Positions 30,361 to 60,862 of a stretch of 64,000 nucleotides of DNA are shown one piece after another. Source of the DNA: Rugamonas sp. (GTDB lineage Bacteria; Pseudomonadota; Gammaproteobacteria; Burkholderiales; Burkholderiaceae_D); NCBI RefSeq assembly GCF_025354735.1, contig NZ_JANXMI010000038.1, positions 1 through 64,000 on the forward strand, in the 5' to 3' direction. Position 1 is the stretch's first letter, and every line of letters starts with the position of its first letter. The notes below the pieces were generated by a model. The model had not been told where the DNA came from, did no database searches, and saw only the letters and a program-made list of their open reading frames with translations. A program made the translations under genes and the position numbers.

Positions 30361-31149
30361 ATGTTGATTATAAAAAAACAAATTTTTCGCACCGCCATGG
30401 CGGCCGCAATATTGCTCGCCGCACCGATCTGCTGCGTAGGCGCAACGCTGGCGCAGACCATCACGAGCGTCAAGCCGGCCATCGTCGGCATCGGCACCAT
30501 GCTGCCCTCGCGCAGCCCGGCCGTCAGCTTTTTCGCCACCGGCTTCGTCGTCGGCGATGGCCTGAGCGTCATCAGCAACGCCCACGCGGTTCCGGCCGTG
30601 CTCGACGCGGCCCACCGTGAAGTGCTGGGCGTGGTCACCGGCAATGGCGACAAGCTCGAATTCCGCTCGGCCACGGTGGTGTCGATAGACAAGGAGCACG
30701 ACCTGGTGCATTTGCGGCTGAGTGGCGCGCCGCTGCCGGCCTTGCGTCTGGGCGACTCGGCCACCATGCAGGAAGGCGACTCGCTGGCCTTCACCGGATT
30801 TCCGCTCGGCATGAGCCTGGGCATGCAGCCGGTCACGCACCGCGCCACGCTGTCGGCCATCACGCCCATCCTGCTGCCGGCGCTGAGCGCGCAACAGCTC
30901 GACGCGCGCGCCATCAGCCAGCAGCGCAAGCCGCCGTTCCTGATCTTCCAGCTCGACGGCACGGCCTATCCGGGCAACAGCGGCAGCCCGCTGTACGATC
31001 CCGACGACGGCGCGGTGTACGGCGTCATCAACATGACGCTGCTGAAAAACCTGAAGGAAAACGCCATCAGCGCGCCCAGCGGCATCAGCTACGCCATCCC
31101 CGCGCATTTCGTCCAATTGTTGCTGCAGCAGGACGCCGGCAAAAAATAA
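30361..31149 (+). CDS. Secreted trypsin-like serine protease
   Basis: A 262-residue S1-fold protease. A signal peptide covers about residues 1-31 (IFRTAMAAAILLAAPICCVG). The triad is recognisable: His75 in SNAHAV, Asp114 in KEHDLVHL, Ser207 in YPGNSGSPL. A PDZ domain is absent, so this is not a complete DegP/DegS protein; similar stand-alone proteases occur near XrtA loci. It could trim envelope proteins or the PEP-CTERM products, but that is inference. It reads away from the EPS operon and precedes the export lipoprotein by 137 bp. Confidence 0.85.
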   Translation: MLIIKKQIFRTAMAAAILLAAPICCVGATLAQTITSVKPAIVGIGTMLPSRSPAVSFFATGFVVGDGLSVISNAHAVPAVLDAAHREVLGVVTGNGDKLEFRSATVVSIDKEHDLVHLRLSGAPLPALRLGDSATMQEGDSLAFTGFPLGMSLGMQPVTHRATLSAITPILLPALSAQQLDARAISQQRKPPFLIFQLDGTAYPGNSGSPLYDPDDGAVYGVINMTLLKNLKENAISAPSGISYAIPAHFVQLLLQQDAGKK

Positions 31150-31286
31150 AGTGCTGACATTGTATAGGCTAAAAGGTATTTCTGATGTAGAATAAACATA
31201 TCAAAATGATAAGCTCTCGTTACGCAAGAAAATACGCAAGCAACCATGGCGGCCGCCACGCCACCGCCCCAGACAGGAGATACTCC

Positions 31287-31913
31287 GTGATTCGATTCCG
31301 TTTCAACACCCTGCGCACCGGCTGCGCAACGCTGCTTTGTGTGCTGGCGATGGCTGGCTGCGCCGGCAACCGCCCGCTGGCCGAAAGCACCAGCGCGCCG
31401 GTGGTCGCGCCCGATTACCTTATCGGCCCTGGCGACAACGTCAACATCAATGTGTGGAAGAATCCGGAAGTGTCGCAGACGGTGCCGGTGCGGCCGGACG
31501 GCAAGATCACCACGCCGCTGGTCGAGGACTTGCCGGCCAGCGGCAAAACGCCGACCCAGCTGGCGCGCGACATCGAAAAAGCGCTCGGCAAATACATCCA
31601 GCAGCCGCAGGTGACCGTCATCGTGACCGGCTTCGTCGGCACCTACTCGGAACAGATACGCGTCATCGGCCAGGCCGCCAAGCCGCAGTCCCTGCCCTTC
31701 CGCAGCGATATGCACCTGATGGACGTGCTGATCGCCGTCGGCGGCGTCACCGAGTTTGCCGCCGGCAACCGCGCCACCATCATCCGCAATATCGACGGCA
31801 AGAACCAGCAGTTGCGCGTGCGCCTCAACGACCTGATCCAGGACGGCGACATGAACGCCAATGTGGCCATGTTGCCCGGCGACATACTCGTCATACCGGA
31901 AAGTTTCTTCTGA
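31287..31913 (+). CDS. XrtA/PEP-CTERM system exopolysaccharide export lipoprotein (Wza-like)
   Basis: The 208-residue protein starts at GTG 31287 with AGGAGA 6 bp upstream; the longer frame lacks a signal peptide at its N-terminus. Residues 1-25 form a lipoprotein signal with lipobox LAMAGC (Cys25 lipidated). The mature protein has the poly-export domain (YLIGPGDNVNINVWKNPEVS, VRPDGKITTPLV) and a SLBB segment (IRVIGQAAKPQSLP, MHLMDVLIAVGG). It forms the outer-membrane end of the export channel with the chain-length protein. In most XrtA loci it is the first gene of the same operon; here it is on the opposite strand, separated by the protease gene. Confidence 0.93.
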   Translation: MIRFRFNTLRTGCATLLCVLAMAGCAGNRPLAESTSAPVVAPDYLIGPGDNVNINVWKNPEVSQTVPVRPDGKITTPLVEDLPASGKTPTQLARDIEKALGKYIQQPQVTVIVTGFVGTYSEQIRVIGQAAKPQSLPFRSDMHLMDVLIAVGGVTEFAAGNRATIIRNIDGKNQQLRVRLNDLIQDGDMNANVAMLPGDILVIPESFF

Positions 31914-31918
31914 TCGCG

Positions 31919-31935
31919 TGTCGGTTTTCTTTACA
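31919..31935 (+). promoter_or_regulatory. PEP-CTERM-box-like activator site upstream of the HPr-rel-A operon
   Basis: TGTCGGTTTTCTTTACA begins 5 bp after the export gene stop. It matches the two boxes upstream of the PEP-CTERM gene (TGTCGG-N5-TTTACA/CTTACA pattern) apart from the central A/T run. Its centre lies about 110 bp upstream of the start predicted from the sigma-54 element at 32011, an appropriate distance for an enhancer-type activator such as PrsR. Confidence 0.65.
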
Positions 31936-32010
31936 CTTTGTCCCGGCGGCGCCCGCTACGGCGCGCCGGACCAGGGCGCTTACGGGGCAAATCGGGGATT
32001 TCCCTCAAGC

Positions 32011-32026
32011 TGGTCTGAAACTTGCT
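32011..32026 (+). promoter_or_regulatory. Sigma-54 (-24/-12) promoter of the HPr-rel-A operon
   Basis: TGGTCTGAAACTTGCT has the invariant GG and GC dinucleotides exactly 12 bp apart and a perfect TTGCT at -12. Transcription should begin near 32037, giving a leader of about 29 bp that contains GGAAGAG (32054-32060) just before the GTG start at 32066. No competing sigma-70 promoter was seen in this gap. Confidence 0.7.
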
Positions 32027-32065
32027 TAAACTAAGCCAAATCTAATAGCCTTGGGAAGAGACAAC

Positions 32066-32644
32066 GTGACTCCTGAACCTCATGAAATAGGCGGCGCCAT
32101 CGAGCCCGTCCCCGGCATTCCCGGCCTGTCGCTGCGCGGCGCGTCGCGGCGCCGCTTCACCCGCGCCGGCGTGGCCGCCTCGGGCGTATTGCTGACGCTG
32201 CACAGTCAACCCGGCATGGCTTGCGACATCTGCAACACGCCGTCGGGCTACCTGTCGGGCGGTCTGCAAAGTTTTCGCGGCGCCAAGCCGGTCTGCACCG
32301 GCCGCAGTCCCAGTTACTGGCAGGGCGCGGCCTGGCCGGGCGGCTGCAACAAGACCAGTATGTTCAGCACCGTGTTCACCTGCACCGGCAGCAACAAGAC
32401 CACCTACGGCAAGTGCTCGCTGCAATCCATGTTGACGCTGCAATCGTTCGACAAGTACGGCGTCGGCAATGCGCTGGTGGCGTGCTGGCTCAATGTGCAC
32501 AGCAGCAAATCGACCTTCCAGACCGAGACCATGCTGAAAAATATCTGGAACGAATACCAGAGCAAGGGCTATTATTCACCGACGGCCGGCGTCTCCTGGA
32601 CCGGCACCCAGATTGTCGCCTATCTGAAAGGCACGTATTATTGA
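32066..32644 (+). CDS. Tat-exported cysteine-rich hypothetical protein
   Basis: An unrecognised 192-residue protein starting at GTG 32066 (GGAAGAG 5 bp upstream). A 26-residue N-region rich in Pro, Glu and Gly precedes a twin-arginine motif SRRRF (27-31) and a hydrophobic stretch (VAASGVLLTL), with likely cleavage after PGMA (residue 52). The mature part has seven Cys (53, 56, 77, 94, 106, 117, 140), the first two as CDIC, and is rich in Ser, Thr, Gly and aromatic residues. The stop overlaps the next start by 1 bp (TGATG). First-gene position and the unusually long n-region make it a candidate client of the PqqD/kinase/nucleotidyltransferase genes that follow; this is inference. Confidence 0.75.
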   Translation: MTPEPHEIGGAIEPVPGIPGLSLRGASRRRFTRAGVAASGVLLTLHSQPGMACDICNTPSGYLSGGLQSFRGAKPVCTGRSPSYWQGAAWPGGCNKTSMFSTVFTCTGSNKTTYGKCSLQSMLTLQSFDKYGVGNALVACWLNVHSSKSTFQTETMLKNIWNEYQSKGYYSPTAGVSWTGTQIVAYLKGTYY

Positions 32645-32874
32645 TGATGTGGAACATCGTTTCCGGCCAGTCCCTGCATCACCACCGATGGGGCGATGAT
32701 TACGTGCTTTATAACGATTTGTCGGGCGCCACCCACATGCTCGACGACGACGCCATGCAATTGCTGCTGGCCTTGCGCGACGGCGACGTCGAGCAGGCCG
32801 AGCTCGACGATCCGGCGCTGGCCGACGCCCTCGCCAGCCTGGCCCAATTGCACCTGATCGTGCCGACGCCATGA
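32644..32874 (+). CDS. PqqD-family peptide-binding protein of the HPr-rel-A system
   Basis: A 76-residue protein with the PqqD/RRE fold pattern: WNIVSGQSLHHHRWGDDYVL, YNDLSGATHMLDDDAMQLLLAL, and a C-terminal helix LADALASLAQLHLI. PqqD-like proteins bind leader segments of peptides or proteins for modification. It sits between the Tat protein gene (TGATG overlap) and the HprK-like kinase gene (ATGA overlap), the conserved gene order of the HPr-rel-A cassette. ATG 32647 is an equally possible start one codon later. Confidence 0.85.
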   Translation: MMWNIVSGQSLHHHRWGDDYVLYNDLSGATHMLDDDAMQLLLALRDGDVEQAELDDPALADALASLAQLHLIVPTP

Positions 32875-33791
32875 ACACCGTTTCCTCGCTGAGCAGCACG
32901 GAACTGGCGGCGCGCCTGGCGGCCGGCCTGCACCTGCGCACCGGCAATTTCACCACGCGGCTGCAAACGGCCATCCCCAGCGTGGCGCGCGGCATCGGCC
33001 TGCTGTATGCCGATTACGCCATCGAAGGCCCGGCCTCCTTCGCCGACTTCCACCTCGAACTGGCGCGGCCGCGCAATCCGCGCCGCTGGATACGGCCGCA
33101 AGTACAACTGCTGTACGACGGCCGCGCCCTGTTCAAGCCGCTGCCGCTGGACCAGGCCTTCCCCATGTTCGAATGGGGCTTGAACTGGTGCATTTCCAGC
33201 CGCGCCCACCGCTACCTGATCGTCCACGCCGCCGTCGTCGAAAAGCACGGCCGCGCCGCCATCCTGCCGGCCCCGCCCGGCTCCGGCAAGAGCACGCTGT
33301 GCGCGGCCCTGGTCGGACGGGGCGGCTGGCGTTTGCTGTCGGACGAGCTGACGCTGTTGCGCCTGGACGACGGCCAGCTGGCGCCCGTGCCGCGCCCGAT
33401 CAGCCTGAAGAACCAGTCGATAGAGCTGATACGCGGCTATCTGGGCGACGCCGTGCTCAGCGACCCCGTCAGCGACACAACCAAGGGCACCGTGGCCCAC
33501 ATGAAGGCGCCGCGCGAGAGCATCGAACAGTCGCACTGCGGCGCCACGCCGGCCTGGGTGGTGTTTCCCCAATACGCGGCCGGCGCCGAGCCGGTCGCCA
33601 CGCCGATGGCGCCGGCCCACACCTTCATGCAACTGGCCGACAACACTTTCAACTACAGCCTGCTGGGCGTGCAGGGTTTCGACGCGCTGGCGCGACTGAT
33701 CGACGCCAGCGCCGGCTACCAGTTCCGCTACAGCCGCCTCGACGACGGCCTCGCCTTCTTCGACCGCCTCGCCGCCGGGCAACAGCCATGA
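32871..33791 (+). CDS. HprK-related kinase A
   Basis: A 306-residue protein whose C-terminal half resembles the HPr kinase/phosphorylase P-loop domain: LIVHAAVVEKHGRAAIL, Walker A PAPPGSGKST (Lys140), then WRLLSDELTLLRLDDG and VPRPISLKNQSIELI. The N-terminal about 100 residues are specific to this family. True HprK proteins phosphorylate HPr at serine; related kinases in peptide clusters such as paeninodin phosphorylate a C-terminal serine of the precursor, so a protein or peptide substrate is likely. Four-bp overlaps join it to the PqqD-like and nucleotidyltransferase genes. Confidence 0.88.
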   Translation: MNTVSSLSSTELAARLAAGLHLRTGNFTTRLQTAIPSVARGIGLLYADYAIEGPASFADFHLELARPRNPRRWIRPQVQLLYDGRALFKPLPLDQAFPMFEWGLNWCISSRAHRYLIVHAAVVEKHGRAAILPAPPGSGKSTLCAALVGRGGWRLLSDELTLLRLDDGQLAPVPRPISLKNQSIELIRGYLGDAVLSDPVSDTTKGTVAHMKAPRESIEQSHCGATPAWVVFPQYAAGAEPVATPMAPAHTFMQLADNTFNYSLLGVQGFDALARLIDASAGYQFRYSRLDDGLAFFDRLAAGQQP

Positions 33792-34897
33792 CGGCGGCCA
33801 CCCGCCCGCCCCTGCTGCTGCAAGCGCTGCGCGACCCCGACATGCTGCGCGCCTGCACGCCGGCGGACTGGGACGTGCTGCTGCGCCAGGCCGCCAGCGC
33901 CAACCTGATGGCCGCGCTGTGGCATCTGGTCGAGCGCCACGGCCTGCTGGCCGAGCTGCCCGGCTACGCGCGCGAGCAGCTGGCCTGGGCCGACATGTTG
34001 GGCCGGCGCCACCGCCAGGCCGTGCTGTGGGAAGTGCGGCTGATCGCCCAGGCGCTGGCCGGCCTGGGCCTGCCGCTGATCTTGCTCAAGGGCGCGGCCT
34101 ACCGCGTGGCCGGCCTGCGCTGCGCCGACGGCCGCCTGTTTTCCGACATCGACATCCTGGTGCCGGAAGCGCGCCTGGCCGAGGTCGAGGCGGCGCTCAT
34201 GCTCAACGGCTGGGCCAGCGCCCACCAGGACGACTACGACCAGCGCTACTACCGGCTGTGGATGCACGAACTGCCGCCGATGCAGCACATGTGGCGCTCG
34301 ACCGTCATCGACGTCCACCACGCCATCCTGCCGAAGACGGCGGCGCTGCGGCCCGACCCGGCGCTGCTGCGCGCGGCCGCCGTGCCGCTGGCCGGCCAGC
34401 CCGGCATGCAGGTGCTGGCGCCGGCCGACATGTTGTTGCACAGCGCGGTACACCTGTTCCACGACGGCGAATTTAAGCACGGCCTGCGCGACCTGCTCGA
34501 CATCGACGCGCTGCTGAGCGAATTCGGCCCGCAGCCGCAGTTCTGGGCCCGGCTGCCGCAGCGGGCGCTGGAGCTGCAGCTGCAAAGGCCGCTGTTCTAC
34601 GCGCTGCGCTATTGCCAGCGCCTGCTGGGCACGGCCGTGCCGGAGGCCGTCACGGCCGCGCTGCGCCCGGCCGGTCCGGGCCCGCTGCTGCTGATGCTGA
34701 TGGACGCCCTGTTCGACCGCGCCCTGCTGCCCGAACACCCCAGCTGCGACGACGGCTTCAGCGCCGGCGCCCGCTTCCTGCTTTATCTGCGCGGCAACTG
34801 GCTGCGCATGCCGGCGCTGCTGCTGGTGCGCCACCTGCTGCACAAGGCCTTGCTCTCGCCGCGCAAGGAAGAAACGCCGGCCGTGCATTTGCGCTAG
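33788..34897 (+). CDS. Nucleotidyltransferase family protein of the HPr-rel-A cassette
   Basis: A 369-residue protein of the NTP_transf_5 type. The active-site region shows LPLILLKGAAYRVAGL, then RLFSDIDILVPEARL with the D-x-D metal ligands, followed by VIDVHHAI and a helical C-terminal half (ADMLLHSAVHLFHDGEFKHG). Related nucleotidyltransferases accompany HprK-like kinases in lasso-peptide and other peptide-modification clusters; the group transferred is not known. It begins 4 bp inside the kinase gene and ends the operon; a 51-bp gap follows. Confidence 0.85.
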   Translation: MTAATRPPLLLQALRDPDMLRACTPADWDVLLRQAASANLMAALWHLVERHGLLAELPGYAREQLAWADMLGRRHRQAVLWEVRLIAQALAGLGLPLILLKGAAYRVAGLRCADGRLFSDIDILVPEARLAEVEAALMLNGWASAHQDDYDQRYYRLWMHELPPMQHMWRSTVIDVHHAILPKTAALRPDPALLRAAAVPLAGQPGMQVLAPADMLLHSAVHLFHDGEFKHGLRDLLDIDALLSEFGPQPQFWARLPQRALELQLQRPLFYALRYCQRLLGTAVPEAVTAALRPAGPGPLLLMLMDALFDRALLPEHPSCDDGFSAGARFLLYLRGNWLRMPALLLVRHLLHKALLSPRKEETPAVHLR

Positions 34898-34948
34898 GCG
34901 TACACTGACGATACCGCGGCGCGCGCCGCTTGCCGGAAGGGAATCATC

Positions 34949-35713
34949 ATGCAACCATCGGCCACCCTGCTCATCAAGTTGCAAGACTTGTCGCAGTTCC
35001 TCGCCGCCGGCAACCTGGACGACGACCTCAACCATCAGGCCGCGCTGACGGCCCGGCTGCTGGGCGCCGACACCTGCTCCATCATGCTCATCAACGACGG
35101 CGGCGGCGAGGACCTGCGCATGAGCGTGTGCGCCACCCACGGCCCGCTGCCGGCCGCCGCCTGGAAGGCCACGGTCGGGCGCGGCGAAGGCATCGCCGGC
35201 CAGGTGCTGGCCAGCGGCGTGTCGCTGCTGGTGCCCGACATCACGCAGTCCAGTTACGCCCACCTGGCGCGCCGCGGCGGCGACGCGCGCCGCAGCCTGA
35301 TGCTGGCGCCGATACGGATGGACCACAAGATCATCGGCCTGGTCAATGTCAGCTGCGGCCAGGCCAAGGCTTGCTTCGACGCCGAAGACCTGCACCTGCT
35401 CGACGTGCTGACCCTGTTCATCGGCAAGTCCATCCAGGTGCTGCAACTGCAAACCATCCTCAATTCGCGCTTCACGCAGATGGCGCTGATGGCCGCCATG
35501 CGCGCCGACGGCGCCGACCCGGTCCGCTTCCAGCAGCCGGAACAGCTGGCCCGCCTCCTGGCCAAGTCCTTCTACAAGGAAATGAACCGCGCCGGCTTCG
35601 ATTCCAGCCAGATCGTCCAGGCCGCGTCGGAAATCATCACCCAATTGCATGCCGAGCTGCACGAGCAGCAAACCGTCTCCGGCGCTGCGCCCGGCGACGA
35701 AGTGCTGCACTGA
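34949..35713 (+). CDS. GAF-domain protein
   Basis: A 254-residue cytoplasmic protein. A GAF domain spans about residues 5-165 (QAALTARLLGADTCSIMLIN, GRGEGIAGQVLASGVSLLVPDI, LMLAPIRMDHKIIGLVNV), followed by a helical tail containing LLAKSFYKEMNRAGFDSSQI. No output domain is present, so it may act by binding a ligand and another protein. It is downstream of the HPr-rel-A operon on the same strand with its own ribosome binding site (GGAAGGGAATC). It ends just before a bidirectional terminator. Confidence 0.85.
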   Translation: MQPSATLLIKLQDLSQFLAAGNLDDDLNHQAALTARLLGADTCSIMLINDGGGEDLRMSVCATHGPLPAAAWKATVGRGEGIAGQVLASGVSLLVPDITQSSYAHLARRGGDARRSLMLAPIRMDHKIIGLVNVSCGQAKACFDAEDLHLLDVLTLFIGKSIQVLQLQTILNSRFTQMALMAAMRADGADPVRFQQPEQLARLLAKSFYKEMNRAGFDSSQIVQAASEIITQLHAELHEQQTVSGAAPGDEVLH

Positions 35714-35746
35714 TACCTAACGCGGGCCCGCCGCCGGCGGCAAAAA

Positions 35747-35781
35747 AAAACCGCCCGCATCGATACGATGCGGGCGGTTTT
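35747..35781. terminator. Bidirectional rho-independent terminator
   Basis: A perfect 16-bp inverted repeat with a 3-nt loop: AAAACCGCCCGCATCG, ATA, then its complement ending CGGTTTT. A run of nine A's on the left gives a strong U-tract for minus-strand transcripts (PEP-CTERM gene); on the plus strand the TTTT inside the stem serves the GAF gene. It separates two converging units. Confidence 0.9.
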
Positions 35782-35821
35782 CGGCGATCAGCCGACGCCG
35801 GCGCGGGGCCGGCGCAGACTA

Positions 35822-36658
35822 TCAGGCGCGGCGGCGGCGCACGAAAGCCAGCGTGGCCAGGCCCAGGCCCAGCAGGCCGATGGAAGCTGGCTCAGGCACG
35901 GCTTCCAGCTTCAGCTGGCCGCCATTGTTGACGAAGAAGTGATTTGGCTCGACGTTCGGCACGGTGCCGCCCAGCGCCGTCACCAGATTCGGGTCGATCG
36001 AGACCGGGCATGCCGCGTTGCAACCACCGGTCAAGTCTTCGCTGGCGTTGGAGGTGACGAAACCGAGCGTGAAGGCCAGCGGCAGCGGCGTGCCGGTGCT
36101 GTCGCGCCACACGCCGGCCGCCAGGAAGCTGGCGGAGAAGTTCAGGGTCAGGCTGCCGTTGGACGATGGTGTGCCGTCGGGGTTGACGCTGGAACCGGAA
36201 GAGCCGGCGATCTGCGTGAACGTGGCGATCTTGGTGCCGCTGGTGGCGCCGTACACGTTGGCGGACGAGGTACCATAGGTGATGGTCGGGCTGTAATAGA
36301 TGTCGAGCAGGCCGCCGGCGTTGAAGCTCAGGCCGCCATTCAAGACGGCGGTGCCGGTGGCGCCGTGGTAGTAGGCCGTCAACTGGCCTCCACCCAACGG
36401 CAACACTACGCCATTGCCTTTTTGGGTGAAGTTGAAGACGCCGGTGTCGGTGAAGGTGAACACGCTCGGATCGCCGGTCGGCGAGTTGTTGACATAGCTT
36501 TCGCCGTTGAAGCCGAGCTGGCTCAGACCGATATCGAGCGGGCCGCCTGGCAGATTCAGCTGGAAATTATCGATTTCGTTCGCCGAAGCGACCTGGCCCG
36601 ACGCTGCCATGACGATAGCCGCGATCGCGGCGCAGCAAGTTTTAGCGCGAATTTTCAT
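35822..36658 (-). CDS. PEP-CTERM sorting domain protein (PepA-like)
   Basis: A 278-residue secreted protein. Signal peptide about residues 1-27 (CCAAIAAIVMAASGQVASA, then NEIDNF); a Ser/Thr/Gly/Asn-rich beta-type body; C-terminal sorting signal VPEPASIGLLGLGLATLAF followed by VRRRRA, i.e. PEP motif, one membrane helix and a basic tail, the exact recognition pattern for exosortase A. Body motifs such as VFNFTQKGNG, GGLLDIYYSP and DGTPSSNGSLTLNF resemble flocculation-associated PepA proteins (moderate confidence). GAGGG lies before ATG 36658. Upstream are a sigma-54 promoter and two identical boxes, so it is probably activated by PrsR. Confidence 0.93.
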   Translation of the reverse strand: MKIRAKTCCAAIAAIVMAASGQVASANEIDNFQLNLPGGPLDIGLSQLGFNGESYVNNSPTGDPSVFTFTDTGVFNFTQKGNGVVLPLGGGQLTAYYHGATGTAVLNGGLSFNAGGLLDIYYSPTITYGTSSANVYGATSGTKIATFTQIAGSSGSSVNPDGTPSSNGSLTLNFSASFLAAGVWRDSTGTPLPLAFTLGFVTSNASEDLTGGCNAACPVSIDPNLVTALGGTVPNVEPNHFFVNNGGQLKLEAVPEPASIGLLGLGLATLAFVRRRRA

Positions 36659-36712
36659 TTTTTGTCCCTCGGTTGAATACATTGATAGAAAGCTGTCCTA
36701 CCCTGGCTATAA

Positions 36713-36728
36713 AGCATCTTCCATGCCA
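36713..36728 (-). promoter_or_regulatory. Sigma-54 promoter of the PEP-CTERM gene
   Basis: On the minus strand TGGCATGGAAGATGCT has GG and GC 12 bp apart and a near-consensus -24 (TGGCAT). Transcription should start near 36702, about 44 bp before the ATG at 36658. PrsR, encoded at 57.3 kb, has the GAFTGA loop needed to activate such promoters. Confidence 0.75.
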
Positions 36729-36792
36729 GTGGGTACAAGTTATTGAAAACAAAGGTAAAAGCTCTTTTTCAGCATATCCGAAAGAAAATATG

Positions 36793-36809
36793 TGTAAGGT
36801 TTTCCGACA
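36793..36809 (-). promoter_or_regulatory. PEP-CTERM box 1 (proximal activator site)
   Basis: Minus-strand TGTCGGAAAACCTTACA, centred about 100 bp upstream of the predicted sigma-54 start. It differs from the distal copy at only two of 17 positions and shares the TGTCGG and TTACA ends with the box at 31919. Confidence 0.7.
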
Positions 36810-36835
36810 TTCTCCCGCCGCCGCGCGTCAAAAAA

Positions 36836-36852
36836 AGTAAAGTTTTCCGACA
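36836..36852 (-). promoter_or_regulatory. PEP-CTERM box 2 (distal activator site)
   Basis: Minus-strand TGTCGGAAAACTTTACT, 43 bp from the proximal copy (about four helical turns), so two activator dimers could bind the same DNA face. It lies 15 bp outside the stop codon of the nitroreductase-like gene, within the 208-bp gap. Confidence 0.7.
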
Positions 36853-36866
36853 AGGCCGGACAGCGC

Positions 36867-37922
36867 TCAGCGCAGCAGCTGGCCCAGGGGCTTGCGCAGC
36901 GAGCGCGCGTGCGGCTGCGGCCCGGCGCCGAGCCGGCCCATGTAGACCGGATAACCTGCGCCCTGCTCGATCAGCGCGGCCATCTCGCCTTCGAGCGCGC
37001 GCGCGCCGCGCTCGAGCGCAGGATCGACGGAAAATTTGATACCTTGCCGCAAATACGACGTGAAAATCAGCGGCGTCATTTCCGGCTGCATCAGCAAGCC
37101 CAGCCCGGTCAGCGTCAGCCAGAAACGCTGCACCGCCCGGCCCGCCGCCACATAATCGTCTATCGTCTGCGGCGCGCGGTCGGCCTTGATGACGTAGTGG
37201 GCGGCGCAAGCGAGTCCCGGGATCAGGTCCATCTGCAGCCGCGGCGCCCAGGTGCCGAGCACCGTGTTCATGGTCTTCATGCGCGGCCAGCTGTGCATGG
37301 CCCAGCGCATCAGCTTGGTCGTCATGGCGTCGACGCCCAGGGCCTGGTCGGGCACCTTGTCGAGGCTGTGGCGGGCATCCCATTCGATGATGCTGCGGTG
37401 CACTTCGAACGCTTCCGGCATCGTCAGCCGCAGCCTGGCGTTCTTGTACATCAGCCAGGCGGCGCGACGGCGTTCAGGGCCTTCCAGCCACTGGATATGG
37501 AAGCCGCCGCCCACGGCCGCTTCCAGCGCGCGCTTTTCGGCCGTGGTCAGGGGCCGCCGCAGCAGCGGCCGGCGCTGCACGGTGCGGCGCTCGATGCTGG
37601 CGATCAGCGAACTGGGGCGCAGCGCCGGATCGGCGCTCAGGCGCACCTGGAACACCGGCCGCAACTCGTCGCCCTCGCGCACGACGTCGGCCCGCAAGCC
37701 GTGGCCGCTGGCCGCGATGCTCAGCGTTTCGAGCAGGGCGCCGTAGGAAATCTGGCTGGGATGGCCGTGCAGGTCGTAGACGCAATGGTCGCGCGTGTCG
37801 TGGCAATAAATCGTCACGTGATCGACGGCGACGATGTCGAATTCCCACACTTGCGTGTTATCGCCGCTGGGGGCCCAGCGCGCCAGGTCGAGGATTTTGA
37901 CGAGGGTGGCGATGCTGTTCAT
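36867..37922 (-). CDS. Nitroreductase-fold flavoprotein (Acg/MoeY-like)
   Basis: A 351-residue protein with the N-terminal LDLARWAPSGDNTQVWEFDI typical of flavin-binding nitroreductase-fold proteins of the Acg type, IYCHDTRD, RSSLIASIERRTVQRRP, and a C-terminal half containing LGLLMQPEMTPLIFTSYLRQ. It should bind FMN and act as an oxidoreductase or flavin-storage protein. ATG 37922 overlaps the ThiF-like stop by 4 bp. Nitroreductase and ThiF domains are fused in some mycobacterial proteins annotated MoeY, supporting a shared pathway; the reaction here is unknown. Confidence 0.8.
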   Translation of the reverse strand: MNSIATLVKILDLARWAPSGDNTQVWEFDIVAVDHVTIYCHDTRDHCVYDLHGHPSQISYGALLETLSIAASGHGLRADVVREGDELRPVFQVRLSADPALRPSSLIASIERRTVQRRPLLRRPLTTAEKRALEAAVGGGFHIQWLEGPERRRAAWLMYKNARLRLTMPEAFEVHRSIIEWDARHSLDKVPDQALGVDAMTTKLMRWAMHSWPRMKTMNTVLGTWAPRLQMDLIPGLACAAHYVIKADRAPQTIDDYVAAGRAVQRFWLTLTGLGLLMQPEMTPLIFTSYLRQGIKFSVDPALERGARALEGEMAALIEQGAGYPVYMGRLGAGPQPHARSLRKPLGQLLR

Positions 37923-38824
37923 GGCTGCGCCTTCGCCTGTGCGGCGGCCTGGGCGGCCGCCAGCGCCTTGCCGTAGACGCGGGTGCCGATGGCGATCGCC
38001 AGCCGCTGCATGGGATGGCGGTTGCCGCCGGGACGCCAGGTGCGCGCCAGCTTGCTGCGGTAGGCGTCGAAATGCAGGCCGTGCGGCGCGGCCCGGACGT
38101 CGCCGCGCCCCAGCAGGATTTTCAGCGCCTCGGTGGCGGCCACGCCGGCGCACAGCTGGCAGGCCATGATGGTCGACGGTCCGCGCCGCTCGGCCAGGTT
38201 GACGGCCGACGGCACCACCAGATACGGCCGATGCAGTCCGGCCGGGGCCAGGCCGACCAGGAAGCGGATCGCTTTTTCCAGCTCGGGCCGGTCGCCCCAC
38301 TGGAAGTACTCCTCGAACGTCATCTGGCCCGGCAGGAAACTCAGCACGGCCGTGCCCATGCCCAGCGGTGCGGCCGTCGTCGACGGGATGCCCAGCTCGG
38401 CGCACTTGGCGAAGGTCATCTGGCGCGCGTCGAAGGCGAAGAAATCCAGGCTGTCCATGTAAAAATCGACGCCGGCGAGGAATTCGTCGACGTTGTCGCG
38501 CGTGACGCCTTCGCTGAAGACCTTGACCTTGGCCTCGGGATTGACGTCGCGCACCATGCGCGCCATCACGTCGACCTTGGGCTGGTCCAGCGTCGACATG
38601 GTGGCGCCGACCTGGCGGTTGAAATTGGGAATATCGTAAGTGTCGAAGTCAGCCACATGGAAATTGGCCACGCCCAGCCGCGCCAGCGTCATCAACTGCA
38701 CGCCGCCGACCCCGCCGCCGCCGGCGATGGCCACAGTCTTGCCGCGCAATCGTTGTTGTTCCTCCGGCGTCACCCAGCCGATATTGCGCGAAAACGCCGC
38801 GTCGTACGAAAAAATTTTGCTCAT
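37919..38824 (-). CDS. ThiF/E1-like adenylyltransferase
   Basis: A 301-residue E1-superfamily protein: nucleotide-binding KTVAIAGGGGVGGVQLMTLA, FHVADFDTYDIPNFNRQVGA (the Asn-x-x-Arg-Gln signature) and DFYMDSLDFFAFDARQM near the Mg-binding acidic residue. Only one CxxC (ACQLC) is seen, so the usual four-Cys zinc site of ThiF/MoeB seems incomplete. The C-terminus is Ala/Gln-rich. E1-like enzymes adenylate a carboxyl terminus or a free carboxylate. Flanking FeeM-like and nitroreductase genes suggest a small-molecule or peptide carboxylate as substrate rather than thiamine synthesis. ATG 38824 follows AAGGA. Confidence 0.85.
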   Translation of the reverse strand: MSKIFSYDAAFSRNIGWVTPEEQQRLRGKTVAIAGGGGVGGVQLMTLARLGVANFHVADFDTYDIPNFNRQVGATMSTLDQPKVDVMARMVRDVNPEAKVKVFSEGVTRDNVDEFLAGVDFYMDSLDFFAFDARQMTFAKCAELGIPSTTAAPLGMGTAVLSFLPGQMTFEEYFQWGDRPELEKAIRFLVGLAPAGLHRPYLVVPSAVNLAERRGPSTIMACQLCAGVAATEALKILLGRGDVRAAPHGLHFDAYRSKLARTWRPGGNRHPMQRLAIAIGTRVYGKALAAAQAAAQAKAQP

Positions 38825-54944: not shown

Positions 54945-57370
54945 TGGCGGCGTGGACCTTGCGCGCGGCCGCGCTGCTGATGCTGGCCGCGCTGGCCTGC
55001 GGCGTGGCCGTGTTCCCGGCGCCGCCCGCGCTGCTGGCGGCGGCGCTGGCCGTGTATGGCGCCGTGCTGTGGTATCGCCCCGCGCTGTGGCTGCTGCTGG
55101 TGCCGGCCGCCCTGCCGGCGCTGGACTTCACGCCGTGGACCGGCTGGTTCTTCCTGGAAGACCTCGATTTGCTGCTGCTGGCCACCTGCGCCGTCGGCTA
55201 CTGGCGCGTCGCCGCCACGCCTGCCACTTCCCGCCTGCCGCCCGTGGTGGGGACCGCGCTGACCCTGCTGACGCTGAGCTATGCCGTCGCCGCCTGGCGC
55301 GGCGTGACGCCGCTGCCGCCGCTGGACGCCAACGCCTTCAGCAATTACACCAGCCACTACAACAGCCTGCGCATCTTCAAGGGCTTGCTGTGGCCCTTGC
55401 TGCTGCTGCCGCTGCTGCGCCGCACGGCCGGCGCCGACGGCGAACAGCTGCGGCGCTGGTTCGGACCGGGCATGATGCTGGGCCTGGCGCTCGCCAGCGC
55501 CGCGCTGATCTGGGAGCGCAAGCTCTTCCCCGGCCTGTCGAATTTTTCCAGCGACTACCGGCCGACCGGCGCCTTTTCCGCCATGCACACCGGCGGCGCC
55601 GCGCTCGACGCCTATCTGGCCATGGCCTTCCCCTTCGTGGCCGTGTGGCTGGTCGGCCAGCGCTCGCGCGTGCGCGTGGCGCTGGGCCTGGCCTGCTTCC
55701 TGCTCGGCGTCTACAGCGGCATGACCACGTTTTCGCGCGACATCTACCTCGCCTACGCCAGCGCCGGCGCGGTACTGGCCCTGCTGTCGGCCGGCGCCCG
55801 CCTGCGCCAAGGCAGCCTGCGCTGGAACAAGGCGCTGGGCGCGCTGGCGCTGCTGGCCGTGCTGGCCTGGGTGCTCGACGCCGTCTTCGCCGCCGGCGGT
55901 TACCGTGGCCTGGCGGCGGCGCTGGGGCTGATGGCCAGCGCCGTCGTGCTCGGCGGCGCCGCCACGCGCCTGCGCCACGCGGCCCTGATCGTCGTGCTCG
56001 GCCTGGCGCTGCTGGCGGCGGCCGCCGCGCTCGACCTGCTGCTGCCCGGCGTCACCGGCAAGGGCGCTTACGCCGGCTATGCGCTGGCCGCCGCCTGCTG
56101 CGGCGCCGGCGTGCTGCTGCTGGCCGGACCGGTGCCGCGCCGCACGCTGGGCCTGGCGCTGGTGGCCGCGCCCTTCCCCGCCATCGCGCTCGGCACCACG
56201 CTGGTGGCGCGCCACTGGGGCGGCAACGCCGCGCTGGCGCCGGCCCTGCTGGCCGTGGCGCTGGCCTGCGCGCTGGCCGCCAGCCGCTGGCTGCCGCGTC
56301 CGATATGGCGCTTGAACCGCGGCTTCGTCACGCTGAGCGCCTTCAGCGCCATCGCGCTGCTGGTGGTCATTCCCGTCACCAGCAGTTATTACACGGGCGT
56401 GCGCTTCGCCAACGTCGGCGGCGACTTGATGGTGCGGGTCGGCCACTGGAGCGAGGCGCTGGCCATGATGGCGCCGGAGCCGGCCACGCAGGCGCTGGGC
56501 ATGGGCCTGGGCCGCTATCCCGACACCTACATCTGGGCCAACACCCACGGCGAAACGCCGGGCACCTTCGCCTACGGCGCCGAGCCGGGCCGCCACTTCC
56601 TGCGCCTGGGCGCGCCCCGCTACGCCCAGGGCTACGGCGAAGTGCTGCGCATGTTGCAGCGGGTCCACCCGCTCAGCGGCCACAGCTACACGCTGGCGCT
56701 GACGCTGCGCCGCGCCGACGACAGCGCCGCGCTGCGGGTCGGCGTGTGCGAGCGCTGGCTGATCTATCCGCAAAATTGCGTCTATCCGCCCTTGCAGGTG
56801 CAGGCCGGCGCGCGCGGCTGGGTGCGCTACGCTTCGCTGATCGCGCCCAAGTTCGGCCAGGATGGCTTGCTCGACCGGCCGGTGCAACTGGAATTGTCGA
56901 ACGAGGGCAACGCGGCGCTGGATATAAGCGACCTCAGCCTGCGCGACAACGACAGCGGCGCCGAGCTGATCGCCAACGGCGATTTCGCCGCCGCCAACAA
57001 TCACTGGTTCTTCAGCAGCGACCACAACCACTTCCCCTGGCACATCAAGAATTTCTTCGTCAATATGGTGTTCGAGACCGGCTGGCTGGGACTGGCCGCG
57101 ATGGCGCTGCTGCTGCTGACGGCCTGCGGCGTGATGCTGGGCCGCGCGCTGCGCGGCGAGCTGGCGCCGGCCGTGACGCTGGCGGCGCTGACGGGCGTGA
57201 TGATGGTCGGCCTGTTCGACAGCCTGACCGACGTGCCGCGCCTGACCACGCTGATGCTGTTGCTGATCGCCTGCGGCACGCTGACGCCGCTGCGGGCCAG
57301 GCCGGCGCCGGCGCAGCGCGGCCGGCGGCGCCGTTCAGGCGGCGGACTTGATGCCGTGCCGCTCCATTAA
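54944..57370 (+). CDS. O-antigen ligase-like polytopic membrane protein with large periplasmic insert
   Basis: An 808-residue membrane protein of about 12-14 helices. The WaaL/Wzy-like pattern includes AMHTGGAALDAYLAMAFPFV and the catalytic loop region MGLGRYPDTYIW and FVNMVFETGWLGLAAMALLL. Between these (about residues 525-690) is a beta-rich insert containing LTLRRADDSAALRVGVCERW and VQLELSNEGNAALDISDLSL that resembles a carbohydrate-binding-like sandwich. Typical ligases are 400-450 residues. Start ATG 54944 overlaps the TPR gene by 1 bp (GTG 54941 is an alternative). The last 36 bp overlap prsR on the other strand. Confidence 0.8.
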   Translation: MAAWTLRAAALLMLAALACGVAVFPAPPALLAAALAVYGAVLWYRPALWLLLVPAALPALDFTPWTGWFFLEDLDLLLLATCAVGYWRVAATPATSRLPPVVGTALTLLTLSYAVAAWRGVTPLPPLDANAFSNYTSHYNSLRIFKGLLWPLLLLPLLRRTAGADGEQLRRWFGPGMMLGLALASAALIWERKLFPGLSNFSSDYRPTGAFSAMHTGGAALDAYLAMAFPFVAVWLVGQRSRVRVALGLACFLLGVYSGMTTFSRDIYLAYASAGAVLALLSAGARLRQGSLRWNKALGALALLAVLAWVLDAVFAAGGYRGLAAALGLMASAVVLGGAATRLRHAALIVVLGLALLAAAAALDLLLPGVTGKGAYAGYALAAACCGAGVLLLAGPVPRRTLGLALVAAPFPAIALGTTLVARHWGGNAALAPALLAVALACALAASRWLPRPIWRLNRGFVTLSAFSAIALLVVIPVTSSYYTGVRFANVGGDLMVRVGHWSEALAMMAPEPATQALGMGLGRYPDTYIWANTHGETPGTFAYGAEPGRHFLRLGAPRYAQGYGEVLRMLQRVHPLSGHSYTLALTLRRADDSAALRVGVCERWLIYPQNCVYPPLQVQAGARGWVRYASLIAPKFGQDGLLDRPVQLELSNEGNAALDISDLSLRDNDSGAELIANGDFAAANNHWFFSSDHNHFPWHIKNFFVNMVFETGWLGLAAMALLLLTACGVMLGRALRGELAPAVTLAALTGVMMVGLFDSLTDVPRLTTLMLLLIACGTLTPLRARPAPAQRGRRRRSGGGLDAVPLH

Positions 57371-58690
57371 ATCGTAGAGCGTGGGCCGGCTGATGCCGAG
57401 CAGTTCGGCGGCGCGGGCGATATTGCCGCCGACCCGCGCCAGGCTGCCGACGATGGCCTGGCGCTCGGCCTGGTCGCGCACCTGGCGCAGATTGAGCGGT
57501 TCCTCGGCCAGCGAACCGCCGCGCAAGCCCAGGTCTTCGGCCTGGATCAGGTTGCCGTCCGCCATGATGATGGCGCGCTTGACGCAGTTTTCCAGTTCCC
57601 GCACATTGCCCGGCCACGCATACTGGCCGATCTGGGCCAGCGCGTCGGCGCGAAATTGCAGCGCGCCGCGTCCTTCCTGGGCGCAGAACAGGTTCTTGAA
57701 GTGTTGCGCCAGCAGCACGGCGTCGCCGTTGCGTTCGCGCAGCGGCGGGATCGTCAGCACGATTTCCGACAGCCGGTAATACAAGTCTTCGCGGAAACGG
57801 CCTTCCTTGGTCAGCGCGTGCAAGTCCTGGTGGGTGGCGCAGATGATGCGCACGTCGACGGCGATTTCCTCGTGGCCGCCGACGCGCTCGATGACGCGCT
57901 CCTGCAAAAAGCGCAGCAGCTTCGCTTGCAGCGGCAGCGGCAGGTCGCCCACCTCGTCGAGGAAGAAGCTGCCGCCGTGGGCCAGCTCGACCTTGCCCTT
58001 GGTCAGCTTGGCGGCGCCGGTGAAGGCGCCCTTTTCGTAGCCGAACAATTCGCTTTCGAGCAGCGTTTCGGGGATGGCCGCGCAGTTGATGGCCATGAAG
58101 CGCGCACGGCCACGGGCGCTCAGGCGGTGCAGCGCGCGTGCCATCACTTCCTTGCCGGTGCCGCTTTCGCCCAGCACCATCACCGAGGCCGAACTGGGCG
58201 CCACTTTTTCAACCATGCGGCACAGCTTCAGCATGCCGGGGTCGCGCGTGATGATGCCGTCCATGGGCGCGGTGGCCGGCGCCTCTTGCAGGCGGCGGTT
58301 GTCCTGCTGCAAGGCGTGCAGCACGTAGGCGCGCTCGATGACCAGGGCCAGCACTTCCGGCTCGGTGGTCTTCTGGTGGAAATCGTAGGCGCCCAGGGCG
58401 ATGGCGCGCATGGCGTGGGCGCGGTCCTGGTTGCCGGTCAGGATGATGACCTTGGTATCCGGCGCCAGTTCCAAAATCTGTTGCAACGTGGCCAGGCCCT
58501 CGGTGGCGCCGTCCGGGTCGGGCGGCAGGCCCAGGTCCAGCGTCGCCACCGCCGGCTCGTGGCGGCGCAGCTGGGCCAGCGCCGACTCGCGGTCGCCGGC
58601 GACGATGACGTCGTAGGCGTCGAAATTCCAGCGCAGCTGGGTTTGCAGGCCCAGGTCGTCTTCGATGACCAACAGCTTAGGTTTGCTCAT
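57335..58690 (-). CDS. prsR: PEP-CTERM-box response regulator PrsR (sigma-54 activator)
   Basis: A 451-residue NtrC-type regulator: receiver (acidic pair D11-D12, acceptor D52 in [10 protein letters not shown]), AAA+ domain with Walker [13 protein letters not shown], the sigma-54-contact loop KGAFTGAAK, Walker B-like [11 protein letters not shown], arginine finger region [10 protein letters not shown], and a C-terminal Fis HTH ([20 protein letters not shown]). PrsR proteins occur with PrsK and PrsT and activate PEP-CTERM genes. In this window the sigma-54 promoters at 36713 and 32011, each with TGTCGG-type boxes, are the clear candidate targets. It is 57 bp downstream of prsK and ends tail-to-tail with the O-ligase-like gene. 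Confidence 0.95.
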
Positions 58691-58747: not shown

Positions 58748-60862
58748 TCAGGCCGCGCGTTCCAGCGCGTCCCGGCGGTACAGCGGCAAATGGACGGTGA
58801 AGGTGCTGCCCTGCTGCGGCCGGCTGCTCACTTCCAGCTGCCCGCCCAGCTCGTGGATGTATTCGCGGCTCTCGAACGCGCCTATGCCCATGCCGGCCGA
58901 CTTGGTCGAGTCGAAGGGCTTGAACAAACGCTCGCGCACGAACTCCTCGCTCATGCCGCTGCCGGTGTCGCGGATTTCCAGCTTGACGCGCTCGCCGTCG
59001 CGGCTGAGCGTGACGCCGACCTCGCCGTCCTTGGGCGTCGCCTCGATGGCGTTCTGGATCAGGTGGCCCAGCACCCGTTCCAGCCGCTCGGCGTCGGCCA
59101 GCACCAGCACGTCGGCCCCGGCGGCGGCGATGGACAGGCGCGGCGTCGGCCGGAACACGGCTTTTTGCTCGACCGCCTGCAACAGCAAGCGCTCCAGCGC
59201 CAGCGGCGTGGCCGGCTGCGGCGAGGCGGTGCGGCTGAGTTTTTGCAACATGCCCTTCATCTTTTGCACCGAATACACCATGGTACGCCGCATGTCGGCC
59301 TGGAAGTCGAGATTGTCGTGGTGTTTTTCGGCGTTGGCCGCCAGCAGCGACAATTGCGCCACCAGGTTTTTCAGGTCGTGCACGACAAAGGTCGACAGGC
59401 GGTTGAAGGAATCGAACTGGCGCGCCAGCATCAGCGCGCTGTCGGCCTGCTGCTGGGCCAGATAACTGGCGGCCTGGCTGCCGGCGATCTTCAGCAAGTC
59501 GATCACTTCCCAGTTCAGCACCACCGGGCTGCGCGCGCGCAACAGCAGCACGAAGCCGGTCAGCTGGCCGTGCAACATCAGCGGCACCACCAGCCAGGCG
59601 CGCGGGATGGCGCGCAGCCAGTCGGGCGCCGGCTCGGCCCCGTCCGGCGGCACGCCGTGCAGGTCGACCAGCCACCGGCGCTGCTCGATGAAGCGGGCGA
59701 ACGGCGCGCCGGGCGCCAGGCGGCAGTCGGCGTCGCGCTGGGGCGGCATCTGCCACTGCGCGGCCGGCGCGTAGCCGCCGCCGTCCTCGCGCAGCCACAG
59801 CGCGCCGCCCGGGCTTTCGACCAGCGCGGCCAAGGCCTGGATGCTGCGCTCGGCGAGCAGCGGCCCCGGCTGCGACAGCGTGCCCGTGAAGCGCAGCCAT
59901 TCTTCGCGGTAATCGTAGTTGTAGCGGTAAAAATGCTTGCTGATGAAGACCCGCAACCAGGCCCGCATGGTGCCGGAAAACAGTATGCCGGCCAGCAGCA
60001 TGGAGGCGCCGAACAGGAAGGCCAGCTGCATCAGCGAACCCCAGCTGCCGCCCACGTAGCGCAGATAATAGGCGGCCGAGCTCATCGTCAGCAGGTAGAC
60101 GGCGGCGCCGACCAGCGCGGCCGAGTGGAACAGCATGCGGCGCGACACGGCCAGCTGCGGCACGGCCGCCGCCTGGCGCGCCACGGCCAGGGCCAGCAGC
60201 GGCGCCGTGAGCGCGTTGACGAGGCCGCGCGCCGCCCACAGCTCGCCGCTCAGTTCGCGGAACAGCAAGGCGTCGCTGTACATATAGAAATCGTAGACGA
60301 ACAAGCCGCCCATGCCGAGGCAGGCGAACTTGACGGCCCAGCGCTTGTGGGCACTGGTGTTGCGGTACAGTTGTTCGACCAGCGCCAGGCCCAGCACGGC
60401 CAGGCCGATGCCGCCCAACACGGACAGGGTGAAATAGTCGGACTGCGCCAGCCACGGCCGCGACAGCGCCACGGCCAGCGCCAGCAGGTAGGCGCCGGCG
60501 GTCCAGCGCGACAGCGGCGTCGGCATCACGCCGCGCGGGCGGAACTGGCCCAGCATACCGAGCAGGACGGCGCTCCAGGCCGCGCTGCGCAGCCATTCGG
60601 CCAGCACGGTGGCCAGCGGCGGCAGGCTGGCCGGGCCGGGCTCGCCGCCGGTCCCGGCACCGAAGGCGCCGCCGGTCCAGCCATCGCTCCAGCCATCCAT
60701 GGCGCAGGCCGCCGCCCACAGCACCGTCAGCGCGGCGGCGGCGGCCAGCCAGCGGCTGGGCGCGCGGTCGCGCCACTTGCTCAGCAGTAGCACACAAAGG
60801 AAGAGAAACGCCAGCGCGGCGCTGGCGTAACTGTAGCTGGCTGTACCATTCATCAACATCAA
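58748..60862 (-). CDS. prsK: XrtA/PEP-CTERM system histidine kinase PrsK
   Basis: A 704-residue membrane histidine kinase. The N-terminal about 300 residues hold eight or so transmembrane helices without a large extracytoplasmic loop; a GAF-like region follows (about 330-490, FARFIEQRRWLVDLHGVP, GQLTGFVLLLRARSP), then HisKA with acceptor His in TFVVHDLKNLVAQLSLL, and HATPase motifs LIQNAIEATP, GSGMSEEFV, SAGMGIGAFESREYIHELGG. It is the cognate sensor for PrsR and likely monitors envelope or membrane state. ATG 60862 (MMLMNGT) is used; 60853 is possible. It follows the initiating transferase by 31 bp. Confidence 0.93.
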   Translation of the reverse strand: MMLMNGTASYSYASAALAFLFLCVLLLSKWRDRAPSRWLAAAAALTVLWAAACAMDGWSDGWTGGAFGAGTGGEPGPASLPPLATVLAEWLRSAAWSAVLLGMLGQFRPRGVMPTPLSRWTAGAYLLALAVALSRPWLAQSDYFTLSVLGGIGLAVLGLALVEQLYRNTSAHKRWAVKFACLGMGGLFVYDFYMYSDALLFRELSGELWAARGLVNALTAPLLALAVARQAAAVPQLAVSRRMLFHSAALVGAAVYLLTMSSAAYYLRYVGGSWGSLMQLAFLFGASMLLAGILFSGTMRAWLRVFISKHFYRYNYDYREEWLRFTGTLSQPGPLLAERSIQALAALVESPGGALWLREDGGGYAPAAQWQMPPQRDADCRLAPGAPFARFIEQRRWLVDLHGVPPDGAEPAPDWLRAIPRAWLVVPLMLHGQLTGFVLLLRARSPVVLNWEVIDLLKIAGSQAASYLAQQQADSALMLARQFDSFNRLSTFVVHDLKNLVAQLSLLAANAEKHHDNLDFQADMRRTMVYSVQKMKGMLQKLSRTASPQPATPLALERLLLQAVEQKAVFRPTPRLSIAAAGADVLVLADAERLERVLGHLIQNAIEATPKDGEVGVTLSRDGERVKLEIRDTGSGMSEEFVRERLFKPFDSTKSAGMGIGAFESREYIHELGGQLEVSSRPQQGSTFTVHLPLYRRDALERAA

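Follow-up and report, generated by a model that had tools for sequence, protein, structure and literature searches.

The analyzed window, a 64,000-nt stretch of a Rugamonas sp. genome (assembly GCF_025354735.1, contig NZ_JANXMI010000038.1, positions 1 to 64,000), contains a four-gene HPr-rel-A cassette encoding a putative exported protein (hereafter gene 1), a PqqD-like protein, an HprK-related kinase, and a nucleotidyltransferase. Promoter elements found upstream of gene 1 here and in relatives strongly support control of this cassette by PrsK/PrsR and sigma-54, together with genes for PEP-CTERM proteins. As the best explanation of the observations as a whole, it is probable that this PrsR/sigma-54-controlled cassette modifies the exported gene-1 protein. 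The promoter and the cassette comprise the following features (positions in the window).

31919..31935, + strand: PEP-CTERM box (motif 1), the predicted PrsR site, TGTCGGTTTTCTTTACA; 17 nt, starting 6 nt past the stop of the exopolysaccharide (EPS) export gene
32011..32026, + strand: cassette sigma-54 -24/-12 element, TGG-N10-GC-T, TGGTCTGAAACTTGCT, located by the GG-N10-GC pattern
32066..32644, + strand: gene 1; GTG start, 192 aa, twin-arginine signal, predicted exported substrate
32644..32874, + strand: PqqD_rel_X, with the fold of a recognition element (RRE) of ribosomally synthesized and post-translationally modified peptides (RiPPs); TIGR04353, 41 bits, cut-off 35
32871..33791, + strand: HprK-related kinase A; TIGR04352, 388.5 bits, cut-off 200
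33788..34897, + strand: NTP_transf_5 nucleotidyltransferase; PF14907, 189.1 bits, cut-off 31.2

The four open reading frames (ORFs) follow one another in series, and neighbours share 1–4 nt. The kinase and PqqD-like genes, which define an HPr-rel-A cassette (TIGR04352/TIGR04353), are adjacent and each scores over its curated cut-off. As a preliminary description of this DNA had proposed, a box and a GG-N10-GC element stand upstream of the four genes, in the intergenic interval 31914–32065 that separates the flanking ORFs. The PEP-CTERM box was described in 2006 as a 17-nt motif 1 ending in TTTACA, followed after a spacer of 32–92 nt by the -24/-12 motif 2 (PMC1569441). The cassette site has the 3' TTTACA, a spacer within 32–92 nt, GG at -24 and GC at -12, an intergenic position, and prsR in the same genome, and thereby resembles the PEP-CTERM box/PrsK-PrsR/sigma-54 regulon of that paper in motif 1, spacer, motif 2, genomic PrsR, and intergenic location. 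It differs from this regulon in its target, a Tat (twin-arginine translocation)-type exported protein with three enzymes and no PEP-CTERM gene, and in its longer spacers (PMC1569441).

The box of the cassette is single-copy in the window even at ≤3 mismatches (expected 0.02), and the sigma-54 element by itself is common there (77 matches at ≤1 mismatch vs 32.5 expected). The bipartite pattern of box and sigma-54 element occurs at three places in the 5.757-Mb genome, while the reversed control pattern gave 0 matches; the remaining two sites both precede PEP-CTERM genes, one of them (the third site) a small PEP-CTERM gene. The PEP-CTERM gene of the window, its promoter, and the two regulatory genes are as follows.

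35822..36682, - strand: PEP-CTERM protein, PepA-like; TIGR02595 over cut-off, NF033554 75.6 bits, slightly below the cut-off of 80
36713..36728, - strand: -24/-12 (sigma-54) element preceding the PEP-CTERM gene, TGGCATGGAAGATGCT
36793..36809, - strand: PEP-CTERM box, copy proximal to the PEP-CTERM gene, TGTCGGAAAACCTTACA
36836..36852, - strand: PEP-CTERM box, second, distal (upstream) copy, TGTCGGAAAACTTTACT
57335..58690, - strand: PrsR, PEP-CTERM-box response regulator; TIGR02915, 718.6 bits, cut-off 502.6
58748..60862, - strand: PrsK histidine kinase; TIGR02916, 769.5 bits

The presence of PrsR in the window had been stated earlier and was confirmed. The claim that the PEP-CTERM gene is preceded by the same two elements in the same order and at the same distance was correct for the elements and their order, and not for the distance: 65 nt separate box and GG at the PEP-CTERM gene vs 76 nt at the cassette, a gap of 11 nt that corresponds to about one helical turn. 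The two boxes share their ends, TGTCGG and TTACA, and differ at 5 of the 17 positions, all lying between these ends. The two copies of the box at the PEP-CTERM gene are 43 bp apart, or about four helical turns.

Recurrence of the site was analyzed in two sets of relatives. The first comprised 250 genomes of the order, including this one; the kinase scored over the cut-off in 40 of them, and all 40 regions were taken. Gene 1 was located by a small hidden Markov model (HMM) for which some of these proteins had served as training sequences (by eye in G049 and G067), and up to 420 nt upstream of its twin arginine were scanned, allowing one box mismatch and any base before GG. A site was present upstream of gene 1 in 31 of the 40 cassettes, as compared with 1/5000 for shuffled regions; the scan itself matched 30, and the 31st site was seen separately in G224, where the twin arginine had been mislocated. 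The second set comprised the best 80 named loci among the matches listed, for which the stretch 1,700–600 nt upstream of the kinase match was used. Here 58 of 80 loci carried the site (shuffled stretches, 3/1600), and an HMM-found gene 1 began right behind it in 51 of these 58. The two sets are not independent, since three pairs at least (G014/L173, G115/L169, and G236/L189) represent one contig each. The named loci include Massilia, Duganella, Noviherbaspirillum, Undibacterium, Thiobacillus, Gallionellaceae, Rhodoferax, Thioalkalivibrio, and Malonomonas, the last of which we take to be a desulfuromonad, and one-mismatch sites were present in the metagenome-assembled records L194 (Rhodobacterales) and L229 (Rhodospirillales). 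Absence of the two elements from orthologous cassettes had been named beforehand as grounds for giving up the link with PrsR; they were found, and their conservation supports the earlier suggestion that the cassette is probably switched on together with PEP-CTERM proteins. Taken singly, sigma-54 elements are numerous in this GC-rich window, which might suggest that box and GG-N10-GC are chance matches. This origin was rejected by the shuffles, by the absence of the reversed control pattern from this genome, and by conservation across many genera, and its probability is vanishingly small.

The site is also specific in its position. The 60 cassette loci, gene-1 promoters excluded, contained 9 more sites in 1.57 Mb strand-bases, of which one was the cassette site of G224 itself and at least five precede PEP-CTERM genes. 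In family f43, the kinase is followed at a distance of about 2 kb by gene 1, which has the box before it at that place (G167, G201, and G129); in G088 of the same family the relocated gene 1 is preceded by a weak box with two mismatches. The box likewise accompanies gene 1 downstream of the kinase in G005 and L227. Since the box relocates together with gene 1, the site belongs to this gene and not to the neighbourhood. The composition of the cassette is stable: the PqqD-like gene is present in 39 of 40 cassettes of the order and 79 of 80 named loci, the nucleotidyltransferase gene in 40/40 and 80/80. Gene 1 was detected by HMM in 38 of 40 cassettes of the order, the remaining two being recognized by eye, and in 72 of 80 named loci.

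Boxes were also observed at other genes close to some cassettes. A lytic-transglycosylase-like gene with Sel1/TPR-like repeats, named by eye, has its own box and sigma-54 element just downstream of the cassette (L156, 6126–7076; L166, 6297–7157; G182, which is L040, about 1.97 kb past the kinase start). In L182 and L187, a box and a weak GG-N10-GC lie about 2.85 kb past the start of the kinase match, before an ORF resembling FeeM-type acyltransferases by eye.

Positions of the sigma-54 element that the scan neither demanded nor preferred still followed the consensus in the named loci, with T at the second position ahead of GC in 52 of the 58 matches and T following GC in 46; the columns for T before GG and T before GC are biased because the scan favoured these bases among alternative elements. 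Box-to-GG distances in the cassettes group near 52–54, 63–66, 73–79, 82–88, and 93–99 nt. These spacers are helically phased (R 0.73 and 0.53 in the two sets of cassettes, against null maxima of 0.57 and 0.44), and the best periods of 11.0 and 10.6 correspond to steps of about 11 bp. The 114 non-cassette sites of PrsR-positive genomes were also strongly clustered (R 0.75 at a period of 12.0, where the scan ended, and 0.66 at 10.5), and the same periodicity test revealed no spacer clustering among the 18 sites of PrsR-negative genomes. Cassette spacers exceed non-cassette ones, with medians of 83 vs 65 nt within 61–91 nt and kinship ignored; the non-cassette spacers were those among the matches listed, excluding cassette sites, one G045 duplicate, and the rows of G128, G082, and G137, which have no PrsR over the cut-off. 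The longer spacers of the cassettes may reflect a different promoter strength.

The distribution of PrsR is consistent with its proposed role. Co-occurrence of the kinase with prsR, which the preliminary description had suggested to examine, was evident: PrsR scored over the cut-off in 36 of 40 kinase-bearing vs 22 of 210 kinase-lacking genomes of the order (Fisher test, phylogeny ignored). Sites were found in 55 of 58 PrsR-positive vs 33 of 192 PrsR-negative genomes, totalling 220 and 54, respectively, and the reversed control gave about 29 across all 250. In cassettes of PrsR-negative genomes, a box at ≤1 mismatch was found in 0 of 25 loci, although gene 1 was nonetheless present in 21 of these 25. 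At the whole-genome level, the bipartite pattern was found in 0 of 20 kinase-bearing genomes of PrsR-negative lineages, drawn from 37 without PrsR over the cut-off (reversed control, 3).

A number of observations weigh against PrsR/sigma-54 control as a general rule. In family f85 (same phylum, other class), PrsR is present in 11 of 11 genomes and the site was found in the cassette region of 0 of 11; pattern matches occur elsewhere in 8 of these 11 genomes (e.g., G502, G606, G516, and G478). Of the 7 genomes from family f53 (same class, other order), all have PrsR and 3 have the site at the cassette. Within the order, 9 of 40 cassettes failed the strict test (G115, G092, G067, G118, G210, G045, G088, G218, and G240); G115 has no PrsR over the cut-off, in G045 the contig end is too near, and the elements are degenerate in G088, G218, and G240. 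The draft assembly of G210 is PrsR-positive and has no pattern match genome-wide. Among the named loci, no site was found in 22 of 80, L158 and L212 having less than 1.3 kb of upstream sequence, just 38 of 58 matches have the TGG...TGC form, and the element of L170 is poor. Among 20 further cassettes there were 7, including 6 from f53, in which the PqqD HMM detected no partner, and the set of four genes can therefore be regarded as firm in the order sample and the named loci only. Across the phylum, 56 kinase-bearing genomes (55 outside the order plus G567) included 19 with PrsR and 25 with an exosortase over the cut-off. The genomic distribution indicates that the cassette does not need exosortase and that it has joined the PrsR regulon in some of the lineages that carry it. 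The tie is a matter of regulation and is confined to certain lineages, since f85 cassettes lack the site and many cassettes lack PrsR or exosortase.

Sigma-54 promoters can respond to other activators, and the draft assemblies of G137 and G005 have a cassette site and no PrsR over the cut-off. The promoter could then be real and be driven by another enhancer-binding protein that reads a similar box. This genome itself encodes a second PrsR-like protein over the cut-off (698.6 bits; contig C78, 15951–17279), and in the 2006 paper the binding of PrsR to the PEP-CTERM box is a prediction and not an experimental result (PMC1569441). As the sites track PrsR in the order sample and are absent from the 20 PrsR-negative genomes described above, a different activator appears distinctly improbable, and control by PrsK/PrsR remains the preferred explanation.

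The cassette proteins point to modification of a ribosomal product. The PqqD-like protein was modelled with a predicted local distance difference test score (pLDDT) of 92, most aligned rows spanning just the first two thirds. The folds nearest to this model are RREs of RiPP pathways, foremost lasso-peptide B1 proteins solved with leaders. The best Foldseek match was the RRE of TbiB1 with its leader (5v1v; probability 1.00, TMq 0.67, E 1.8e-3), followed by several other RREs, with nothing below E 0.001, and the sequence profile had no match in the PDB at E ≤ 1. The P-loop of the HprK-like kinase is invariant in 18 of 18 aligned members, and a profile of this protein matches structures of HPr kinases (1jb1, E 2.2e-4). 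We infer that the PqqD-like protein guides the kinase and the nucleotidyltransferase to the Tat-type exported protein; the RRE fold of this partner implies a ribosomal substrate.

Gene 1 has the properties of a precursor. It has a twin arginine before a hydrophobic stretch, which is a Tat-type signal. In alignment A2 the arginines R28 and R29 are present in 43 of 43 gene-1 proteins, a count that is somewhat biased because twin-arginine proteins were the seeds of the HMM that retrieved the members. Conservation of the leader extends past these arginines (39 of the 43 proteins have T44 and 41 have S47), and the majority fraction is 0.63 in the signal vs 0.48 in the mature part, which is the conserved-leader/variable-rest pattern of precursors. 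Leader counts over 120 proteins were partly built in by the R[RK] and [TSAG][LVIMAY] anchoring, and A2 was relied on instead. Conservation of T44 and S47 seems to exceed the needs of an export signal alone and would suit recognition by an RRE.

The mature parts fall into several classes that look unrelated by eye, and searches of Pfam and NCBIfam gave no hit at E ≤ 0.01 for any of the 43 proteins of A2. In the class with SPGYW, serines S60 and S64 follow the signal in 43 of 43 proteins of A2, inside a poorly modelled tail, and the structure model contains a block with pLDDT ≥94 from about residue 81 to 190. A search of the PDB gave E 5.5 or worse for the fold and 0.39 or worse for the sequence, and the modelled mature domain is possibly a new fold. 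Another class ends in C[WYF]xS[LFV], found near the C-terminus in 25 of 143 proteins (18/28600 shuffles). A universal phosphorylation site was sought and not found, a loose serine motif being present in 69 of 122 proteins only. Gene 1 was also considered as an exosortase substrate and rejected: the PEP-CTERM tail pattern was found in 0 of 122 gene-1 proteins, and because this tail is absent, gene 1 is not an exosortase substrate. The tie to exosortase biology claimed previously thus holds as a regulatory and genomic link and fails for gene 1 as a substrate of the sorting enzyme.

Two results speak against a Tat-exported and modified gene-1 product. Tat-signal models had no match at E ≤ 0.01 among the 43 members, short models being weak at this threshold, and no single serine is conserved across all gene-1 classes. 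Since no serine is common to all classes, S60, S64, and C[WYF]xS[LFV] are per-class candidates only. The missing common site, the location of the cassette within an XrtA EPS locus, and the rearrangement that parts the kinase from gene 1 in six loci would also fit a promoter of the PrsR regulon whose enzymes modify a small molecule, an EPS precursor, or another protein, gene 1 being merely co-expressed. This seems unlikely to us because gene 1 is nearly always with the cassette, in PrsR-negative loci as well, and because the RRE-fold protein implies a ribosomal substrate.

A close regulatory parallel is pepA of Aquincola tertiaricarbonis, a PEP-CTERM gene in floc formation whose dependence on RpoN1 was measured (PMC9850573). 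Like the cassette, pepA has a sigma-54 promoter with a predicted enhancer upstream; unlike pepA, the target here is the HPr-rel-A operon, and its regulation is predicted from sequence (PMC9850573). The closest biochemical parallels are RiPP clusters. Clusters for linear polyphosphorylated peptides (LPP) of Bacillota, first noticed in capsule loci, encode an RRE, an HprK-like kinase, and an NTP transferase, and their precursors have a conserved N-terminus and a highly variable C-terminus, with one serine reported as phosphorylated (PMC13381572). They share with the cassette the discrete RRE, the HprK-like kinase, the NTP transferase, the precursor logic, and the location in polysaccharide loci. 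They differ in their hosts, Bacillota as opposed to Pseudomonadota and one desulfuromonad, and in the use of an archaeal-type/SipW-like signal peptidase and an MsbA-like transporter, whereas the precursor of the cassette combines a twin-arginine signal with a domain that is folded in the model (PMC13381572). A dedicated signal peptidase and an MsbA-like transporter are not among the four cassette genes; the window and the genome were not searched for them.

In paeninodin-like lasso peptides, HPr kinase homologues phosphorylate the C-terminal serine of the precursors, and in the case of pseudomycoidin the peptide, once phosphorylated, is decorated with one or two hexoses by a nucleotidyltransferase (PMC8498205). 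The set of RRE, HprK, and NTP transferase is reported to phosphorylate, and thought to glycosylate, paeninodin-like and LPP peptides (PMC8498205, PMC13381572). The cassette resembles the paeninodin/pseudomycoidin systems in the combination of an HPr kinase homologue with a nucleotidyltransferase and differs from them in its candidate substrate, a protein of about 140–290 aa (PMC8498205). A lasso-peptide cluster was considered and rejected, as the macrolactam cyclase and the B2 protease are absent from the four cassette genes; two asparagine-synthase-like proteins of the window scored 278.5 and 92 bits vs the lasso-cyclase cut-off of 525. The terms "HPr-rel-A" and "HprK-related kinase" were not found in a literature search whose scope excluded subscription journals and preprints, and the portions of the RiPP literature surveyed contained no statement of a link between the cassette and PrsR.

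The window represents an XrtA EPS locus, in which XrtA, PrsT, PrsK, and PrsR score over their cut-offs. Two more of its genes are the following.

31287..31913, + strand: XrtA system EPS export protein, directly upstream of the cassette; TIGR03027, 240.9 bits
20172..21734, - strand: exosortase XrtA with EpsI domain; TIGR03109, 351.8 bits, and TIGR02914, 101.5 bits

Beside PrsT, an Acg/nitroreductase-like ORF (36870–38405), a ThiF/MoeB-like adenylyltransferase (37922–38824), and a FeeM-like acyltransferase (38832–39560) were observed. An Rfam search of positions 31000–37000 gave no match.

The sequences show how the promoter is built, that it is conserved and moves together with gene 1, which genes make up the cassette, and that the PqqD-like protein has an RRE-like fold. 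These findings are compatible with the following scheme. PrsK/PrsR, acting from the box as predicted for PEP-CTERM genes, would activate sigma-54 RNA polymerase at the cassette promoter, and the gene-1 protein and its three cytoplasmic partners would be produced at the same time as PEP-CTERM proteins. The RRE-fold PqqD-like protein would bind the conserved twin-arginine leader of gene 1, after which the HprK-like kinase may phosphorylate a serine of the gene-1 product and the NTP_transf_5 enzyme may add a sugar or nucleotide to that phosphate. The modified product would be exported by the Tat pathway into the EPS layer. More tentatively, and with less than even confidence, we suggest that this represents an undescribed maturation of a matrix protein, in which a kinase and a nucleotidyltransferase guided by the RRE first phosphorylate a Tat-exported protein of a new fold and then add a sugar or a nucleotide to it, the whole being co-induced with exosortase-sorted proteins by PrsK/PrsR and sigma-54.

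With a place in a defined regulon, a candidate substrate, a partner of RRE fold, and a promoter that can be mutated, the HPr-rel-A cassette becomes a testable system. If the proposed scheme is true, the PrsR regulon extends past PEP-CTERM genes in a conserved fashion, and the modification by RRE, kinase, and NTP transferase that has been described for peptides may also act on exported proteins. A single signal would then build both the sorted and the modified parts of the exopolysaccharide matrix.

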